Positions 33,455 to 40,713 of a stretch of DNA of 64,000 bases are shown piece after piece. The DNA lies in contig NZ_CP066370.1 in assembly GCF_016406325.1 (NCBI RefSeq), forward strand, positions 3,410,001 through 3,474,000, given 5' to 3'. Each line of letters starts with the position of its first letter. Position 1 is the stretch's first letter. The notes beneath the pieces are model-generated. The model made no database searches. It had not been told where the DNA came from and saw only the letters and a program-made list of their open reading frames with translations. The stretch comes from Shewanella putrefaciens. Lineage in GTDB: Bacteria > Pseudomonadota > Gammaproteobacteria > Enterobacterales > Shewanellaceae. The position numbers and the translations under genes are program-made.

Positions 33455-33479
33455 AATAATCCCTAACAAATTAAACTAT

Positions 33480-33494
33480 CGACATATTATGTCG
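33480..33494. promoter_or_regulatory. Palindromic operator shared with the yjfI promoter
   Basis: CGACATATTATGTCG contains the 13-bp palindrome GACATATTATGTC. The same 13-mer (centre base T or A) occurs twice at 37324-37336 and 37358-37370 around the yjfI promoter. A looser relative, TTGACATGTTCAA, lies at 33508-33520. This copy stands between glnE and the lipoprotein gene, so it could act on either. Confidence 0.65.
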
Positions 33495-33679
33495 TAAATG
33501 ATATAGATTGACATGTTCAACGAGACTTGCAGCTACCTGATGTAACACACAAATAAAGGAATGCCCTTTTATCAGTGCTGTTTAAGGGTACTATAACCTG
33601 TGCAACAGGCATATTGGGCAAGAGGATTATTATTTGCCCGCAAGTATTTGAGTTTTATTTCAACCCTTTTGGAGACAAC

Positions 33680-34663
33680 ATGGCAGGAATGCTAAGGCAT
33701 GTTCTCATATCGATACTCTTGATTACGGTGACTTTATCCTTGACGGGATGTGGTGATGATAGACCGGATAAAATAGCTAAGTATCAACAACTCACTGAGC
33801 AGCGTCTCGCGTCGCTCGGCACTATGCTCGATGACGGGCAATTGCGTAACGCCAATCTGCTAAAACAATACAGCACACTGTTAAAACAGCAAAAACCCGA
33901 TTTAGCACCACTGCTTGATGAACTAGCGAAGGATTCAGGCCCCAAAGGGCCTATGTATACATCACTAAAACGTCGCTTAGAAGAGTCTAAAAATGCGGCA
34001 AATTTTGCCGATCTCGATCAGCAATTAGCCGAAGCTGAAAACCTCTATCAAGCGGCAGATCCGAGCCTGTTTAACGATATGCTGTCCGATCCCGTTAACG
34101 TGGTTGCCGATATGTCCGAGGGTAAGCTCGCCCGCGTAAATGCGATTAGCCGTGAAGCCGCAGCATTAGCCAATGGCGCAGAAGACTTTGGCCCTGGTAG
34201 CCAACTTGTTGGTAACCCTGCCTACGGCAGTTGGCAAACCGATTCCAGTGGTACGTCATTTTGGGCTTGGTACGGCATGTATTCCATGTTCTCAAATATT
34301 TTTAATCGTCCCATTGCCTATGACCGCTGGTCAGGTAATCGTGGCTATAGTTATTACAATGACGTAGGCCGTTATCGCTATACCTCACCAAAGCAAGCCG
34401 ATGCCCAAGCGAAAACATTTGAACAAACTAAAAAACGATTTGACTCTCAAGGTAAGCGTTTTGATAGTCCCTATGCGAAACCACGTACAGGAGCCACGGC
34501 ATTATCCCGTGAAAGCACGAGTACACCCAAAGCCAATACAACGAGCGCGAGTAAAAGTTCTGCGAATAATTCAAGCAGTAAGTTCCGTTCAAACTATTCT
34601 AAAGACAGTAGTTTCCGTAATTCCAGCAATCGTACGACCCGCAGTGTGCGCCGGGGCAAGTAA
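33680..34663 (+). CDS. Lipoprotein heading the DUF350 / PspA-like cluster
   Basis: I do not recognise a named family. The 327 residues begin with a lipoprotein signal, MAGMLRHVLISILLITVTLS then LTGC, with the lipidated Cys at residue 24. A helical region follows (about 30-150), then a tyrosine/tryptophan-rich part (YGSWQTDSSGTSFWAWYGMY...). The last 90 residues are rich in Ser, Thr, Lys and Arg (SSANNSSSKFRSNYS...RTTRSVRRGK) and are probably disordered. The general layout recalls YjfM/YgiB (DUF1190) lipoproteins, but I cannot claim homology. ATG 33680 is chosen for its GGAG six bases upstream; a longer frame from 33575 has no ribosome site. It is followed after 13 bp by the DUF350 gene. Confidence 0.75.
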   Translation: MAGMLRHVLISILLITVTLSLTGCGDDRPDKIAKYQQLTEQRLASLGTMLDDGQLRNANLLKQYSTLLKQQKPDLAPLLDELAKDSGPKGPMYTSLKRRLEESKNAANFADLDQQLAEAENLYQAADPSLFNDMLSDPVNVVADMSEGKLARVNAISREAAALANGAEDFGPGSQLVGNPAYGSWQTDSSGTSFWAWYGMYSMFSNIFNRPIAYDRWSGNRGYSYYNDVGRYRYTSPKQADAQAKTFEQTKKRFDSQGKRFDSPYAKPRTGATALSRESTSTPKANTTSASKSSANNSSSKFRSNYSKDSSFRNSSNRTTRSVRRGK

Positions 34664-34676
34664 CTAAGGATTTCCA

Positions 34677-35576
34677 ATGACACTATTTCAGGATTTCGGT
34701 ATCACATCAGAGCTAGTCACGATACTCGCTATCGATCTTACTATTGCAGTTATCTTGCTAACCTTAATGCGTTATTTACAAGGCTGGAGTGTAAAAGTTA
34801 ATAGCAGTAAAGAACTCGCCGAGCGAGATAATTTTGCCTTTGGTATCAGTACCGCTGGCGCAGTTGCTGCTCTCGGCATTGTATTAACTGGGGCAATAAC
34901 AGGGGCTGCAGCTCACTCCTATATGACCGAGGCGATAGGCATGAGCGCCTATGGACTGTTTGGTTTAGTACTAATCAAGCTCGGACGTTTTTTGCACGAT
35001 AAAATCGCCTTAAATGAACTGGATAAAAATCAGCAAATCATTAAAGGAAATATTTCTGTTGCCATCGTTGATGCAAGCGCCGCCATTGCGACCGCCATTA
35101 TTATCCGCGCTGTTTTGCTCTGGGCTGAGGATTTAACGGTCGATACTTTCATCGCAATTTTCAGTGCATTTGCGATTTCGCAATTAATGCTAGTATTACT
35201 GACTCGCTGGCGTGAAAACCGTTTTGCAAGCCGCAACCAAGACTCTTCTATGCAACATGCGCTCGAACAAGGGCACACTGCGCTGGCGATTCGCCACGCG
35301 GGCTACATGATTGCAATGGCATTGAGCTTTAATGCCGCAAGTCATTTTATTATTTTTAATCCAACAGCATACGTAACAAATGTGATTGGCTGGTTGGTAT
35401 TTTCAATCATTATGCTGATTGTGCTTTCACTACTGATATTTGTGGTGAAAAAATTAGTCTTGGCTCGCATCGATTTGGCTAATGAAGTGGAAAGACAGCA
35501 CAATATTGGTATTGCTGCAGTAGAAATGGCGATCAGTATCGCTATCGCGCTTATTCTTACGGCACTGATGGCCTAA
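34677..35576 (+). CDS. Double DUF350-domain membrane protein (YjfL-like)
   Basis: The 299 residues form about eight membrane helices made of two repeats of the DUF350 unit. The first repeat is marked by ELAERDNFAFGISTAGAVAA followed by LGIVLTGAITG; the second by ARIDLANEVERQHNIGIAAV and a run of small residues to the end. E. coli YjfL has only one such unit and sits next to yjfI-yjfJ-yjfK, the same partners seen here. Function is unknown. It begins 13 bp after the lipoprotein stop and ends 4 bp before the aminopropyltransferase gene, so these three are one transcript. Confidence 0.85.
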   Translation: MTLFQDFGITSELVTILAIDLTIAVILLTLMRYLQGWSVKVNSSKELAERDNFAFGISTAGAVAALGIVLTGAITGAAAHSYMTEAIGMSAYGLFGLVLIKLGRFLHDKIALNELDKNQQIIKGNISVAIVDASAAIATAIIIRAVLLWAEDLTVDTFIAIFSAFAISQLMLVLLTRWRENRFASRNQDSSMQHALEQGHTALAIRHAGYMIAMALSFNAASHFIIFNPTAYVTNVIGWLVFSIIMLIVLSLLIFVVKKLVLARIDLANEVERQHNIGIAAVEMAISIAIALILTALMA

Positions 35577-35580
35577 TCGA

Positions 35581-37305
35581 ATGCAAGAAAACAGTTTAGC
35601 TCCCTTAGCGGCTAAACCTAGCCGCTTAGGTTGGTTTGACGATGTCCTATTATTGGGCATTATGGCCGTATTAGCAGGCTGCGGCCTGATTTACGAATAT
35701 CTACTGTCACATTATGCGGGGCGTATTTTAGGTGCATTAGAAGCGGCCATCTACACTATGATTGGCTTGATGATCGTTTCTATGGGATTGGGGGCCTTTG
35801 CTGCACGTAAAATCCGAGATGCCTTTACCGGTTTTGTCATATTAGAACTCACAGTCGCACTTTGTGGCTCACTCGCCATTTTAATCACCGCGGCGGTGAT
35901 TGGTTTTGGTCAACAACTGCCTTTAATCATTGCAAGTACATTAGGGTTACCACCGGATCAATTACCGGATGGCGGTGTGATAGGTACGCTGCAAAAACTC
36001 AGTGAATACTTACCCTATATGTGGGGTGTGTTGCTAGGCTTGATGATTGGTATGGAAATCCCCCTTATCGCAAGGGTACGCCAATCCCTTTCTGATGAAC
36101 ATTTGCTCCATAATGCTGGCACTATTTATGGTGCTGATTACATAGGTGCAGGCATAGGTGCCGCCATTTGGGTGGGTTTTATGCTTGCCATTGATATTCA
36201 GCTCGCCGCCGCCTTAACCGCCAGTTTTAACCTATTAGCGGGTTTTGTGTTTATCTGGCGATTCTGGCCGAAAATCCGCCAAGCTAAACTGCTGTTAATC
36301 GGGCATCTTGTTGTCACCGGCGTCTTGTTGGTGTTAGCGATACACGGCCCACGCTGGGAGCAAGAATTTAACAATCTGCTTTATAAAGATAAAGTGGTTT
36401 ATAGCAAGGCAACTCGATTCCAACAACTGACGTTTACTGAACGCCTACGGGGTAATGGATTAGCACCTGTATATGCTTTATATATCAATGGCCGTTTACA
36501 ATTTTCGAGCATAGATGAGCACATCTACCATACATTTCTCGTGCATCCCACACTCGCCGCCAGTGCCCGCCATAACAAAGTACTCATTATTGGCGGTGGT
36601 GACGGGCTTGGATTAAAACAGGTACTGCGTTGGCAACCGGAACAGGTTACCCTACTCGATCTTGATGCTGATCTGGTTAAGTTATTTAAGTCACCCGATA
36701 CAGATATGCCTGAAAATTTAACTCAAGCTATGCTGGCATTAAATGGCGACGCACTGAATGATCCCCGTGTCACAATCATCAATGATGATGCCTTTAACGG
36801 CGTCGATAAACTAATTGCCACAGGCGTTAAATACGATGCCATTATTGTGGACTTACCCGACCCGAGCCACCCCGATCTCAATAAGCTGTACTCAGATTAT
36901 TTCTACCGTAAATTAAAGGAACTAATGAGCAGTGATGGCGCACTGACTGTACAGTCAACCTCGCCTTATCATGCTCCTAAGGCCTTTATTTCAGTGGCAA
37001 AAACCTTAGTTGTAGCAGGATTTGACGTTAAGCAATATCACCATAATGTCCCCAGCTTTGGCGAATGGGGATGGAGCATTGCTACCGCTGGTGGACGGGA
37101 TGCACAGTACAGGCTTGCGCAGTTAACGGAATTCCCTATCAAAGATGATTGGCTCACATTAGGACTTGTGAAGGGCGCATTTGAGTTTCCAGCTAACTTT
37201 TATCTGGATGCTGTCAATATAAAACCCAATGAATTAGGCTCATTACAGTTGTACCACTACCATTTACAGGCTTGGTCTGAAAACCAAGGAATCGATCTTT
37301 TTTAA
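35581..37305 (+). CDS. Membrane-fused spermidine-synthase-like aminopropyltransferase
   Basis: The 574 residues join about seven N-terminal membrane helices (about 22-260) to a C-terminal spermidine-synthase-like domain (about 270-560). In that domain the substrate-binding block is SIDEHIYHTFLVHPTL, the nucleotide loop IIGGGDGLGLKQVLRW, and the catalytic-type segment VDLPDPSHPDLNKLYS. Enzymes of this fold move an aminopropyl group from decarboxylated S-adenosylmethionine to a polyamine; the membrane half suggests action at or across the inner membrane. The actual acceptor is unknown. The start ATG 35581 follows the DUF350 stop by 4 bp. No partner such as speD is visible. Confidence 0.9.
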   Translation: MQENSLAPLAAKPSRLGWFDDVLLLGIMAVLAGCGLIYEYLLSHYAGRILGALEAAIYTMIGLMIVSMGLGAFAARKIRDAFTGFVILELTVALCGSLAILITAAVIGFGQQLPLIIASTLGLPPDQLPDGGVIGTLQKLSEYLPYMWGVLLGLMIGMEIPLIARVRQSLSDEHLLHNAGTIYGADYIGAGIGAAIWVGFMLAIDIQLAAALTASFNLLAGFVFIWRFWPKIRQAKLLLIGHLVVTGVLLVLAIHGPRWEQEFNNLLYKDKVVYSKATRFQQLTFTERLRGNGLAPVYALYINGRLQFSSIDEHIYHTFLVHPTLAASARHNKVLIIGGGDGLGLKQVLRWQPEQVTLLDLDADLVKLFKSPDTDMPENLTQAMLALNGDALNDPRVTIINDDAFNGVDKLIATGVKYDAIIVDLPDPSHPDLNKLYSDYFYRKLKELMSSDGALTVQSTSPYHAPKAFISVAKTLVVAGFDVKQYHHNVPSFGEWGWSIATAGGRDAQYRLAQLTEFPIKDDWLTLGLVKGAFEFPANFYLDAVNIKPNELGSLQLYHYHLQAWSENQGIDLF

Positions 37306-37321
37306 CGGAGAAAGATAGTGC

Positions 37322-37372
37322 TTGACATATTATGTCTCGGTGCTATCTTTGAACACAGACATAATATGTCAA
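37322..37372 (+). promoter_or_regulatory. yjfI promoter framed by two palindromic operators
   Basis: TTGACATATTATGTC (37322-37336) is exactly repeated as its inverted complement GACATAATATGTCAA (37358-37372). The left copy holds a perfect -35 box TTGACA (37322-37327); TATCTT at 37344-37349 is a fair -10 box, 16 bp away. The right copy would cover the start of transcription. This is the classic layout for repression. The same 13-mer lies at 33480. Confidence 0.72.
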
Positions 37373-37383
37373 TAAGGACAAAT

Positions 37384-37797
37384 ATGAATATCCATACCCT
37401 TGCCAATCACCTCAACAGTCTTGGCAATAACAGCCAAACAGGCTTTCAATTTGATTGTTATCCGATTGATGGCGAAGTAGAAGTGTTGCAAGTGAATGTG
37501 GTCGGCCGTGAAGAAATCCCGGTATTCGTATCGGTAACGGATAACCAAATTCTCTGCATCAGTTACCTGTGGGGCGAGAATGAAGTAAACCAAGAACGTC
37601 GCAGTGAAATGTTTGAAACTATGCTAGAGCTCAACATTCCAATGCCTTTGTCAGCCTTTGCAAAAATCGATGACAAATACGTAGTTTACGGCGCGCTATC
37701 ACTACAATCTAGCATGCTTGAAATAGAGCAAGAATTAGCAGTTTTATCTGATAACTGTTTAGAAGTTATTGATGAATTGGTCGACTATCTGAAATAA
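37384..37797 (+). CDS. yjfI: YjfI-family protein (DUF2170)
   Basis: The 137-residue protein matches the YjfI/DUF2170 type: short, soluble, acidic, with FVSVTDNQILCISYLWGENE in the middle and KIDDKYVVYGALSLQSSM near the end. Function is unknown; in E. coli it is always next to the PspA-like YjfJ. I chose ATG 37384, with AAGGAC before it, over an upstream GTG at 37318 that would start before the promoter. It is 11 bp from yjfJ. Confidence 0.85.
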   Translation: MNIHTLANHLNSLGNNSQTGFQFDCYPIDGEVEVLQVNVVGREEIPVFVSVTDNQILCISYLWGENEVNQERRSEMFETMLELNIPMPLSAFAKIDDKYVVYGALSLQSSMLEIEQELAVLSDNCLEVIDELVDYLK

Positions 37798-37808
37798 GGA
37801 GCCACAAA

Positions 37809-38498
37809 ATGGGCATTCTGAATAAAATTTTAACAGCGTTTCGCGGTGGTGCCACCGAAGTTGGCCAAAGCATCGTTGACGCAAACTCAACCCGTATTTT
37901 CGAGCAGGAAATCCGTGACGCCGAAAAACACTTAACCAACGCTAAACGCGAACTGACCGATGTGATGGCAAAAGAAATGCAGGCCAGTCGTGAAATCGAT
38001 CGTTTGAAGCGTTCTATTGCTGAACACGAAGGCTATGCAACTCAAGCGCTGGATAAAGGTAATGAACCTCTCGCGATTGAAATTGCAGAGAAGATTGCAC
38101 AGTTGGATCAAGAGTTATCCGAGCAACAAAGTGCAAACGATAGCTTTAGTGCCCATGCTGCACGCTTGAAAGACTTAGTGAAGAAAACCGAACGCCAACT
38201 GTCTGATTATCAACGTCAGTTGAGCATGGTTAAAACCACTGAAAGCGTTCAAAAAGCCACGGCAACGATTACCGACTCTTTTGCTTCAAGCAACTCTAAA
38301 CTGCTGAATGCAAAAGATTCATTAGAGCGTATCAAAGCACGTCAACAACAGTTTGATGACAGGCTAAAAGCCGCAGAAACTTTAGCTGAAGAAAGCAGCG
38401 ATAAATCACTGCAAGCTAAGTTAGCTGAAGCTGGCATCGGTGAGCAAAAATCCAATGCAAATGCAGTACTTGACAGGATCAAGGCTCGCAAAAGCTAA
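37809..38498 (+). CDS. yjfJ: PspA/IM30-family membrane-associated protein YjfJ
   Basis: The 229 residues form the long coiled-coil hairpin typical of PspA/IM30/Vipp1 proteins, which assemble on the inner face of the membrane and protect it under stress. The start MGILNKILTAFRGGATEVGQ looks like the amphipathic helix that binds lipid. EQEIRDAEKHLTNAKREL and KTERQLSDYQRQLSMVK are parts of the coiled coil. The protein lacks the psp operon neighbours pspBC; its partners here are yjfI and the DUF350/aminopropyltransferase genes. A terminator follows, so yjfK may be transcribed less. Confidence 0.9.
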   Translation: MGILNKILTAFRGGATEVGQSIVDANSTRIFEQEIRDAEKHLTNAKRELTDVMAKEMQASREIDRLKRSIAEHEGYATQALDKGNEPLAIEIAEKIAQLDQELSEQQSANDSFSAHAARLKDLVKKTERQLSDYQRQLSMVKTTESVQKATATITDSFASSNSKLLNAKDSLERIKARQQQFDDRLKAAETLAEESSDKSLQAKLAEAGIGEQKSNANAVLDRIKARKS

Positions 38499-38512
38499 GT
38501 AAAGAGTGACCG

Positions 38513-38564
38513 AATGCCGAGTATCGATGGGATCATCACCCCCTATTGAACTCGGCATTTTTTG
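38513..38564 (+). terminator. Terminator after yjfJ
   Basis: AATGCCGAG (38513-38521) pairs with CTCGGCATT (38551-38559), followed by TTTTTG. The loop is long (29 nt) and may hold a smaller inner hairpin. It could lower expression of the genes downstream. Confidence 0.7.
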
Positions 38565-38656
38565 TTTCAACCATTAAATAAGCTCACCTTCGTCAGTGAT
38601 TATCCGCAGCTATTCGCTTATCACGCAGCACACAGGCAAAGTCAGCAGGAGTGAAT

Positions 38657-39310
38657 ATGGGATTTTTTAACAGTATTTTTGGTACAAAAACGCCACCACA
38701 ACGTGAGCTCAATCATCCATCCCAGCTTAATGTGGGCGATATGATCTCAATAGATGATAGTTTTGCCCTACCAACACAATTACGAGGTCAACAGCTTAAA
38801 GTCGAAGCTGTTAACACCTATGAGTTCGAGCGTAACCAACAAGCCGAATGGGTGCTTAAGGGGCATGGTAGCGATACCATTTATTTAAGTATTGAAGAAG
38901 ACGATGAAACCTACCTCGCATTGTCCATTAAGATCACCCGTAACCAAGTTGAACAGATCTTTGATTTAGAACAATTTAGTACTCTATTTGATGAGCCTGG
39001 ACACGCCGAATTAACAACTCAGGCGTTATCCACTGATAACGCTGCTCAACTTGAGCAATGGCTTGGAAAGCAATACCATCAAGTGACTTTTGCCGCCTTT
39101 GGTTATTTCCACCGCGAAGATTACCGAGGCCTAAAGCCACCCCAAGATGCTAATGGCAATACGGGCGAACCTTTTGAATATTACTTGCTACTCAATGATG
39201 ATGAGAGCCGTGCAATCGAAATTGAAGTTTATGAAGGTGGCGATACCGATGTGGTATTGACCCTATACCGCCCTCTTACTGATATTAGGGAATACTGGCC
39301 TAGTAAGTAG
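38657..39310 (+). CDS. yjfK: YjfK-like protein (DUF2491 type)
   Basis: The 217-residue protein is similar in length and place to E. coli YjfK (219 residues). It starts MGFFNSIFGTKTPPQ, a short hydrophobic tip like other members, then has a beta-rich body with RGQQLKVEAVNTYEF, DETYLALSIKITRNQV and a YLLLNDDESRAIEIEVYEGG block. It is acidic and soluble, and its function is unknown. ATG 38657 is chosen over GTG 38651 because AGGAG stands five bases before it. Confidence 0.8.
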   Translation: MGFFNSIFGTKTPPQRELNHPSQLNVGDMISIDDSFALPTQLRGQQLKVEAVNTYEFERNQQAEWVLKGHGSDTIYLSIEEDDETYLALSIKITRNQVEQIFDLEQFSTLFDEPGHAELTTQALSTDNAAQLEQWLGKQYHQVTFAAFGYFHREDYRGLKPPQDANGNTGEPFEYYLLLNDDESRAIEIEVYEGGDTDVVLTLYRPLTDIREYWPSK

Positions 39311-39322
39311 CGGCTAGAATAA

Positions 39323-39349
39323 GATAAAGTGCGTGGCACGCACTTTATC
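39323..39349. terminator. Perfect hairpin between yjfK and the small RHH-like gene
   Basis: GATAAAGTGCGT (39323-39334) and ACGCACTTTATC (39338-39349) form a perfect 12-bp stem around GGC. No T run follows, so it may be a processing or stability element, or an operator, not a terminator. Confidence 0.5.
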
Positions 39350-39431
39350 GCTAATCTCAATACACTCCCTGTATAATTAACGCCAGCGTGAAAGCGTGAT
39401 GCAACCAGTTGATAGCAATAGGTAATACGCA

Positions 39432-39761
39432 ATGAGTAAAACAAAAAATCCACTTCCCGAACAATGGCTAAAAAATCAACAGGCGGCAAAAGCAACTCAA
39501 GTCGCTTTTGATCTTGATGAAAAATTTCAATACTCCATCCGTAAAGCGGCACTCGATGCAGGTGTGAGTCCTTCTGACCAAATCCGTACCATTTTAGGTT
39601 TAAGTGTATCCAAACGCCCGACCCGACCACGCCTCACCGTATCACTCAATGCCGATGACTATGTTCAACTCGCCAAAAAATATGGGCTAAGTGCTGAGGC
39701 GCAACTTGAGATAAAACGTCGTGTACTCGATGATCTAGTGCATTTTGTGGATAAGACCTAG
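39432..39761 (+). CDS. Small double ribbon-helix-helix-like protein
   Basis: The 109 residues read as two tandem ribbon-helix-helix units. Unit one is the strand QVAFDLDEKF, helix QYSIRKAALDAG, turn and helix SPSDQIRTILGL (about 22-56). Unit two is the strand RLTVSLN, helix ADDYVQLAKKYGL, helix SAEAQLEIKRRVLDDLV (about 66-105). RHH proteins such as Arc and CopG bind short palindromes as dimers, so a single chain with two units could bind one site. It is encoded next to yjfK and before the K+ channel, making it the best candidate to read the GACATATTATGTC palindromes. That link is inferred. ATG 39432 follows a weak ribosome site. Confidence 0.65.
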   Translation: MSKTKNPLPEQWLKNQQAAKATQVAFDLDEKFQYSIRKAALDAGVSPSDQIRTILGLSVSKRPTRPRLTVSLNADDYVQLAKKYGLSAEAQLEIKRRVLDDLVHFVDKT

Positions 39762-39882
39762 CACATCCTACCTTGACAATGATTTGATGACAGGCACAGT
39801 AAAGACGCCATTTATCACAAACACAATTTACTCGTAGCATAAAGTCTTTTACTTTAGAGATTTATCGCACTTTAAAGGGATC

Positions 39883-40713
39883 ATGTTTACCATGACAGAT
39901 AAAACACCATGGTCGCTCCGTTCGCTTAATGGCCCATCACCTATTGAGCTGGCGATGATGTTGTTATCCCTACTGTCGGTGATCATCGTCCTCGTCATGA
40001 CCTTTGTCCGACTCGACACTGAAACCTATCGTTTACTCTTTTTTATTGATACCAGTGTCTGTCTGATTTTTATGGCCAACTTTTTTGTGGGTTTATTCCG
40101 TGCTCGCAATAAGACGTTTTATCTACGCCATCACTGGATTGACTTTATTGCAAGCATTCCAGCAATAGAAGCACTACGTATCGCGCGTGTTTTCCAGATC
40201 CTACGAGTGATCCGTTTGATCCGCATGAGTAGCTCACTGCTATTACCGCTGATAAAACAACGAAAACAAGCCACCTTAGCCAGTCTATTAGTTGCCATGG
40301 TAACAATACTTACCTTCGCTTCCATCATTATTTTAATTGTTGAAAGTGGCACTGAAGGTGCCAATATTCAAACGGCTGAACAGGCGATTTGGTGGGCTCT
40401 AGTGACTATTTCTACCGTAGGTTACGGAGATTATTATCCGGTAAGTACAGTCGGGCATATTGTTGGTGGTCTGGTTATTGTTAGCGGCGTCAGTTTCTTC
40501 GGGGTTATTTCAGGTTATATGGCATCCGTATTTGTCGCACCCGATGAAACAGAGCAGCAAGAACGTCAGGATGCCCATAAGGCCGAAATTAAGTCTGAGC
40601 TTGAACTCGCACTCCTTAGGATGGAAGAGAACCAAAAGCAAATTGAAGAAAATCAGACTAAAATGTTGCAGCAAATTACAGAGTTAAGACAAGCCTTAGA
40701 AAATAAAAAATGA
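39883..40713 (+). CDS. Voltage-gated-type potassium channel
   Basis: The 276 residues form a six-helix ion channel. S4 is unusually clear, with regularly spaced Arg (ARVFQILRVIRLIRMSSSLL, about 100-120). The pore filter TVGYGDYYP near residue 185 is a standard K+ filter. A long charged coiled coil fills the last 50 residues (ALLRMEENQKQIEENQTK), probably a tetramerisation tail. No RCK/TrkA domain is present. ATG 39883 has AAAGGGA just before it; ATG 39892 is also possible. It is the last gene of the cluster and is followed by a terminator. Confidence 0.92.
   Translation: MFTMTDKTPWSLRSLNGPSPIELAMMLLSLLSVIIVLVMTFVRLDTETYRLLFFIDTSVCLIFMANFFVGLFRARNKTFYLRHHWIDFIASIPAIEALRIARVFQILRVIRLIRMSSSLLLPLIKQRKQATLASLLVAMVTILTFASIIILIVESGTEGANIQTAEQAIWWALVTISTVGYGDYYPVSTVGHIVGGLVIVSGVSFFGVISGYMASVFVAPDETEQQERQDAHKAEIKSELELALLRMEENQKQIEENQTKMLQQITELRQALENKK

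Follow-up and report, generated by a model that had tools for sequence, protein, structure and literature searches.

Eight open reading frames (ORFs) lie in one orientation between positions 33680 and 40713 of the 64,000-nucleotide stretch of Shewanella putrefaciens DNA that was analyzed (the window), as an earlier note on this DNA had described. The first (33680..34663, forward strand, as for all genes below) encodes a lipoprotein with a lipobox (LTGC) recognized by eye and with no Pfam or NCBIfam family above the cut-off, and it is followed by genes for a DUF350 protein with two DUF350 units per chain (34677..35576; PF03994, 129 bits, two matches) and for a membrane-fused spermidine-synthase-like protein, here called APT (35581..37305; PF01564, and NF002956 with 674 bits against a cut-off of 472). 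Downstream, yjfI (37384..37797; DUF2170, PF09938, 127 bits, with the solved relative 8q8o) adjoins, by profile match, the PspA/IM30 family gene yjfJ, here pspA (37809..38498; PF04012, 139 bits), the product of which scored 14.9 bits with NCBIfam PspA (TIGR02977 type), below the cut-off of 242.95. The next gene (38657..39310) had been called YjfK in the earlier note, a label that gave way to DUF4178 (PF13785, 28 bits, cut-off 25); DUF2491 is the family of E. coli YjfK, and the E. coli operon has YjfK where the locus has DUF4178. The last two genes encode a candidate repressor of 109 residues with two ribbon-helix-helix (RHH)-like units (39432..39761), assigned by pattern, structure matches, and co-occurrence with an operator, and a K+ channel-like protein (39892..40713; PF00520 and PF07885, and potassium channels of known structure).

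These families recur together in other genomes, as emerged from the neighborhood comparison that the earlier note had proposed. Where a double-operator locus contained YjfI and its downstream side could be seen for 3.3 kb or more, PspA and RHH genes both followed in 42/42, and the K+ channel gene was found in 15/42; the channel, previously counted as a member, is thus present here but an optional neighbor. In the 26 loci with an upstream view of 4.3 kb or more, APT was seen in 21, and DUF350 and the lipoprotein in 23 each; minimal loci consisted of operator, YjfI, PspA, and RHH. A locus scan covered 80 of at least 117 loci. Alignment A1 comprised 17 of 18 representatives and the window, with L061 omitted for ambiguous bases. 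The gene content of the cluster is already known and in print: the parts of Ravi et al. 2024 (PMC11237479) drawn on here describe a lipoprotein/DUF350/membrane-fused spermidine-synthase-like/YjfI/PspA/DUF4178 operon, sometimes with a final RHH gene, so that the candidate system of the earlier note is not new in gene content. In the same parts, SpeE-like and YjfC-like versions form separate operon groups. Their second group, the PspA-CesT/Tir operon (S. oneidensis AAN56744-AAN56747), has the same families as the locus, including YjfI next to PspA, DUF350, the lipoprotein, and DUF4178, but there the RHH protein figures only as a "transcription factor," and neither an operator nor a regulon beyond the operon is given; the K+ channel is placed in the third of their groups (PMC11237479).

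A 13-bp palindrome, GACATAWTATGTC, was exact at the three positions at which it had been noticed before, once before the first gene and twice at the yjfI promoter, although the single operator of that description is in fact a set of three, spread over two promoters. O0 (GACATATTATGTC, 33481..33493) lies between the lipoprotein gene and the divergent glnE, O1 (GACATATTATGTC, 37324..37336) overlaps the −35 box of yjfI, and O2 (GACATAATATGTC, 37358..37370) lies directly 3′ of the −10 box. The yjfI promoter (37322..37349, forward strand) reads TTGACA, a 16-bp spacer, and TATCTT, a layout common to 85/91 promoters in a comparison that took in only loci with two sites under a relaxed pattern and in which a few genomes were possibly counted twice (L032 and L179). 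O1 overlapped TTGACA in these 85/91, and O2 followed the −10 box in most. Since a simple promoter scan performed at chance level (17 promoter-like sites versus 15.9), the yjfI promoter, which looks sigma-70-like, rests on this 91-promoter comparison. A terminator-like hairpin followed by a U tract (38512..38560, forward strand; z = −5.5, with 0/200 shuffles as stable), missed by a simple terminator scan, separates pspA from the DUF4178-RHH-channel genes, and one operon for all eight genes appears doubtful for this reason. The earlier note had named independent expression of the two halves as a refutation, and the hairpin after pspA makes this partly relevant.

Within the window, the number of sites with up to 2 mismatches was not unusual (4 versus 1.58 expected, with 11/100 shuffles reaching 4). 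In the 4.39-Mb genome, exact GACATAWTATGTC occurred in 6 copies versus 0.2 expected from base composition, and the reversed-pattern control gave 0 copies in the same whole genome. All 60 of 60 genomes in a sample of the genus carried 4 to 9 copies, in total 363 versus 2 for the reversed control, and the general form of the operator was GACAT-N3-ATGTC, mostly GACATAWTATGTC. Only 3/69 operator sites fell inside an ORF of at least 100 aa (1/65 without loci L218, L219, and L242, and 3/69 once these were restored), versus 64% of random positions. The three exact sites outside the cluster lie 34 to 61 bp upstream of genes unlinked to it: htpX, a gene for a bPH_5 membrane protein, and a unit that encodes NfeD and two band-7 proteins. 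Operator versions with another center precede AIM24 and Tim44-like genes, and the genes behind the operators are membrane genes; this survey comprised 60 loci and part of the sites of each genome, so that target counts are lower bounds. Because the same operator precedes unlinked membrane genes, the cluster is, as read from the sequence, part of a regulon, with a candidate for the regulator encoded inside it, and the operator looks like a widespread switch that ties the cluster to scattered membrane-maintenance genes. The earlier note had passed over these distant copies. No report of the operator was found in titles and abstract starts of the CC-licensed PMC literature, in which the motif letters returned only papers with nonbacterial titles.

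The presence of the operator followed that of the RHH gene. Across 247 genomes of the order, at least 2 copies were found in 56/77 RHH-positive versus 2/170 RHH-negative genomes; in the class, at least 2 sites were found in 7/13 versus 0/356 (G000 and G064 are counted in both sets). By genus, the corresponding counts were 14/16 RHH-positive versus 1/71 RHH-negative. Fisher tests on this co-occurrence treat genomes as independent. All 16 RHH-positive genomes of the order that lack an exact site belong to one family (f11), in which 17/17 RHH-positive genomes carry a changed operator, GACATTWAATGTC, at the yjfI promoter (compared with 20 RHH-negative genomes picked by hand). An altered RHH specificity in this family is not claimed, as the presumed strand residues are identical to those elsewhere. 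YjfI was ruled out as the reader of the operator because 26 of 29 YjfI-positive, RHH-negative genomes have no site; of the others, 2 have one site and 1 has at least 2.

The RHH label was based on a sequence pattern and helix predictions, together with structural matches that were weak but agreed with one another. The protein had no Pfam family above the cut-off, and in 18 members, matches were to RHH_1 in 1/18 (E = 0.037), FitA-like_RHH in 1/18, and NikA-like in 3/18; as a curated RHH family match was not obtained, only "RHH-like" is claimed. With 18 sequences as input, structure modeling gave a poor result (pTM, 0.37), and a second model used 54 sequences. The structural neighbors of residues 20 to 58 in the predicted structure were RHH repressors and antitoxins. 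Searches of the sequence gave nothing credible against solved structures and weak matches only against PHROGs. RHH repressors use short palindromic sites, and the predicted fold of residues 20 to 58 resembles that of Arc/CopG/PutA/NikA-type proteins, from which the locus protein differs in that its single chain of 109 residues carries two RHH-like units. It is the probable reader of the operator.

We consider it likely that the locus is the center of a membrane-maintenance regulon repressed by the double-RHH protein through this operator. The protein, encoded two genes after pspA, would bind the operator and repress; at yjfI, bound O1 would cover the −35 box and bound O2 the start region, and RNA polymerase would be shut out. 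More speculatively, membrane damage might release the repressor, perhaps via PspA or its chaperone-like partner YjfI, and PspA, DUF350, the lipoprotein, band-7/NfeD, and HtpX protease might then be coproduced and the inner membrane mended. Another transcription factor, encoded elsewhere and coinherited with yjfI-pspA-RHH, could instead read the operator while the RHH protein does something else. We think this unlikely: the operator-RHH co-occurrence is indirect, RHH lies beyond the terminator-like hairpin in this genome, and three genomes (G139, G527, and G577) break the rule, but this DNA-binding-like gene is kept in minimal loci and follows in all 42, and the operator switches with RHH within groups, as in genus g8, in which only G177 has the operator, together with RHH. 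Still less probable is a role of the operator-bound RHH protein as an activator, or a role chiefly at the scattered targets, in which case the main control of the cluster would come from YjfI or sigma factors. RHH proteins can activate. The Pseudomonas DUF2170 protein BacA exerts negative control over its own operon, for which a sigma-54 site is proposed (PMC10948618). Yet the placement of O1 and O2 in most yjfI promoters is an occlusion layout, and YjfI occurs without the operator in 26/29 RHH-negative genomes. That the palindromes are RNA hairpins or repeat elements rather than protein-binding sites is hardly credible and was rejected on position and distribution. A read-through transcript would allow pairing of O1 with O2 (z = −4.9), but the copies are few per genome and nearly all outside ORFs, depend on RHH, keep a fixed spacing to the −35 and −10 boxes, and include O1 upstream of the expected transcript start.

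Canonical Psp (PspF/sigma-54, PspABC) likewise places a PspA-family protein under dedicated control, but the locus PspA is far under the NCBIfam PspA cut-off, and here a sigma-70-like promoter bears the operators. PspA-family proteins are bacterial ESCRT-III-like membrane menders. We tentatively entertain a further PspA control logic, in addition to PspF/sigma-54 and two-component systems, in which a dedicated double-RHH repressor over PspA, DUF350, the lipoprotein, band-7/NfeD, HtpX, and ion carriers would be released once PspA and YjfI are engaged by membrane damage; the repair machine would in this way report its own occupancy to the genome. The bac operon of Pseudomonas aeruginosa has DUF2170 (BacA) and PspA (BacB) as its first two genes, as in yjfI-pspA, and BacA has a negative influence on its partners; neither "ribbon-helix" nor "palindrom" occurs in the text of that paper, which proposes a sigma-54 site (PMC10948618). 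E. coli yjfIJKL, raised in heat-evolved strains through a promoter deletion, shares the YjfI-PspA pair and DUF350 with the locus but, as described in the part of the paper drawn on, is without a SpeE-like or RHH gene (PMC12492005).

PF01564 spans APT residues 313 to 504 and NF002956 the full length, with N-terminal membrane helices seen by eye. Alignment to solved aminopropyltransferases showed a catalytic domain with its GGGDG and D-x-x-D/E-P motifs. The polyamine modification suggested in the earlier note, and a SpeE-for-YjfC swap as a polyamine step, may hold but have a gap: a profile search found no AdoMet decarboxylase of family PF02675 in this genome, although decarboxylated AdoMet might come from a eukaryote-type enzyme or by uptake. 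In 20 other APT-bearing genomes, of our choice and with APT seen in the loci of 19 (G064 equated with L107), PF02675 was absent from 10 and present in 10.

For the YjfI/YjfJ branch that has the SpeE-like enzyme, no description of its induction came to light. The gene cluster itself is known; the operator, the regulon, and the candidate repressor are proposed here from the sequence. The operator points to a switch, to its candidate repressor, and to a set of genes that go together (band-7, NfeD, HtpX, DUF350, bPH_5, AIM24, and Tim44-like), and the regulator, signal, and membership of an uncharacterized membrane-maintenance response become directly testable, e.g., in S. oneidensis MR-1. Beyond the genus, the operator was also found in many other gammaproteobacteria.

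The locus comprised eight genes, all in one orientation (window positions 33680-40713; the window spans 3410001-3474000 of the 4.39-Mb Shewanella putrefaciens genome), as the earlier note had described, and the palindrome that it placed at three positions was indeed present there in 3 exact copies, O0 before the lipoprotein gene and O1 and O2 at the yjfI promoter. In Pfam and NCBIfam searches, no family was assigned to the lipoprotein gene, DUF350 was matched twice in the next protein, and the membrane-fused aminopropyltransferase-like protein (APT) had a spermidine-synthase domain within a PRK03612-type protein. YjfI (DUF2170) was followed by PspA/IM30 and by a gene formerly labelled YjfK, which matched DUF4178 instead; the ribbon-helix-helix (RHH) candidate had no family assigned, and the last gene encoded an ion channel. 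Over 33469-33493, O0 and the mechanically assigned start of the divergently oriented glnE ORF are 12 bp apart, and expression of glnE could therefore be touched too.

The available text of Ravi et al. 2024 (PMC11237479) describes a six- to seven-gene operon that contains DUF4178 and a novel lipoprotein and ends, "in some cases," with an RHH gene; the authors propose that it monitors polyamine levels or aminopropylation. By that description, as far as its text extends, the cluster belongs to the described group; the operon is known, and its gene content does not constitute a new system as had been suggested. Judging by accession style, the accession numbers given by those authors are presumably from S. 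oneidensis. In excerpts of further reports, BacA (DUF2170) adopts the fold of type III chaperones, with its operon partners accumulating in a BacA mutant (PMC10948618), and E. coli yjfIJKL is raised in heat-evolved strains via a promoter deletion (PMC12492005). No published report of the operator and its regulon was found.

Genome-wide, GACATAWTATGTC occurred at 6 exact sites versus 0.2 expected from base composition; those outside the window were located 34 bp upstream of a bPH_5 membrane protein gene, 46 bp upstream of htpX, and 61 bp upstream of NfeD and two band-7 genes. With any three-base centre allowed, 10 sites were found versus 3 in the control with the pattern reversed. Of the four extra sites, one each preceded AIM24, a Tim44-like protein, and a TonB-receptor-like ORF (named by eye), and the fourth (GACATTGTATGTC, G000:C1:1142855) fell within a 167-aa ORF and 212 bp upstream of a UppP-like gene (named by eye). 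A site with one mismatch (GACATATTCTGTC, G000:C1:3978167) was seen upstream of a Na+/Ca2+ exchanger gene.

All 60 sampled genus members carried 4 to 9 exact sites (363 in total; reversed control, 2). The htpX and nfeD sites recurred in 6/6 further members of the genus for which several sites were fetched, and the bPH site recurred in 4/7 from which any locus was fetched; in genus g13, the htpX site was present in 4/4 and the nfeD site in 3/4. Targets in family f6 included an NhaA-like gene divergent from an AsnC-like gene (4/5; by eye, with Pfam on one), band-7 (3), nfeD (3), and a second PspA (1). Less expected targets included a sulfate permease, M16-like peptidases, an esterase, and a TraB protein. 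Sites lay within ORFs ≥100 aa long in 3/69 cases, versus 64% of random positions. On this sequence evidence, the operator marks a predicted regulon.

Among 247 order genomes, RHH was found in 77, the exact operator in 74, and YjfI in 106, including all 77 RHH-positive genomes. At least one site was present in 61/77 RHH-positive versus 13/170 RHH-negative genomes, and at least two in 56/77 versus 2/170; collapsed to genera, the operator was present in 14/16 versus 1/71 (P = 3e-13). Operator presence also switched with RHH within groups, e.g., in genus g8, where sites occurred only in the sole RHH-positive genome (G177). Of 29 YjfI-positive, RHH-negative genomes, 3 had a site and G166 alone had at least two; its contig stops inside DUF4178, and the RHH position is therefore beyond view. 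Eleven RHH-negative genomes carried one site, exceeding the reversed control (3/247), so some of these may be real. In the class set (369 genomes), at least one site was found in 9/13 RHH-positive versus 4/356 RHH-negative genomes (reversed control, 9/369), and at least two in 7/13 versus 0/356. The RHH protein is a strong candidate repressor.

The 16 RHH-positive order genomes without an exact site were all in family f11, where the layout of the yjfI promoter was kept around a different centre: GACATATAATG(A/C/G)C at -35 and GACATTWAATGTC after -10 (10 loci read). GACATTWAATGTC was found at yjfI in 17/17 f11 genomes, 15 of them without a second copy, and in 2/20 hand-picked RHH-negative genomes; control in f11 may thus be local. 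In the class set, the operator pair was CCCATAATATGTC and CCCATATTATGTC in G370 and G497, and the exact operator was not found in RHH-positive G527 and G577. G139 had two exact operators and no RHH match.

In a set of 91 two-site yjfI promoters, O1 overlapped TTGACA in 85, a -10 element with at least 4/6 matches followed 16 to 18 bp further on in 67, and O2 came after, 34 to 39 bp from O1 in 76. Such placement around -35 and -10 suits repression by occlusion. Outside the order, yjfI operators were 15 to 18 bp apart instead (L264, L265, L266, L268, and L269). A hairpin with a U tract located 3' of pspA points to an at least partly separate transcript for DUF4178, RHH, and the channel in the host; negative autoregulation is therefore likely only at loci in which RHH comes immediately after pspA.

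Scanning contigs for two operators 8 to 36 bp apart gave at least 117 stretches (80 readable), spanning Shewanella, Colwellia, Pseudoalteromonas, Kangiella, Aliikangiella, Moritella, Motilimonas, Thalassotalea, and others. YjfI was present in 69/80 readable loci; of the other 11, L069 stops at the operators. The grouping put forward in the earlier note held for PspA and RHH, both in 42/42 YjfI loci whose visible sequence extended 3.3 kb past the YjfI start, and not for the channel (15/42); DUF4178 was present in 38. Seven minimal loci (L028, L032, L051, L072, L076, L083, and L092) consisted of operator, YjfI, PspA, and RHH, with DUF4178 absent and neither APT nor DUF350 in view.

Double operators were also seen upstream of carbonic-anhydrase-like genes in Colwellia MAGs (L081 and L089; named by eye), with 24-bp spacing before a YidC-like gene in an uncultured Shewanella (L105; named by eye), and before a small cysteine-bearing membrane protein of ~98 to 116 aa in Motilimonas and relatives (L041, L223, L228, and L236). 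In family f6, operators lay 115 to 158 bp before short secreted proteins of ~93 to 112 aa (L200, L205, L207, L211, and L214), with no Pfam family in the one scanned.

APT aligned to solved aminopropyltransferases and retained the GGGDG stretch. AdoMet decarboxylase (PF02675) was absent from the host genome, with the control positive in 8/14 genomes. Ten of 20 other APT-bearing genomes had PF02675 and 10, including all 6 genus members, did not; thus, a donor is often available outside the genus, and in Shewanella either another source must supply it or APT has a different function. In G491 (L268), an AdoMet decarboxylase gene (G491:C69:11045-11359) lies directly upstream of the membrane-fused SpeE-like APT gene.
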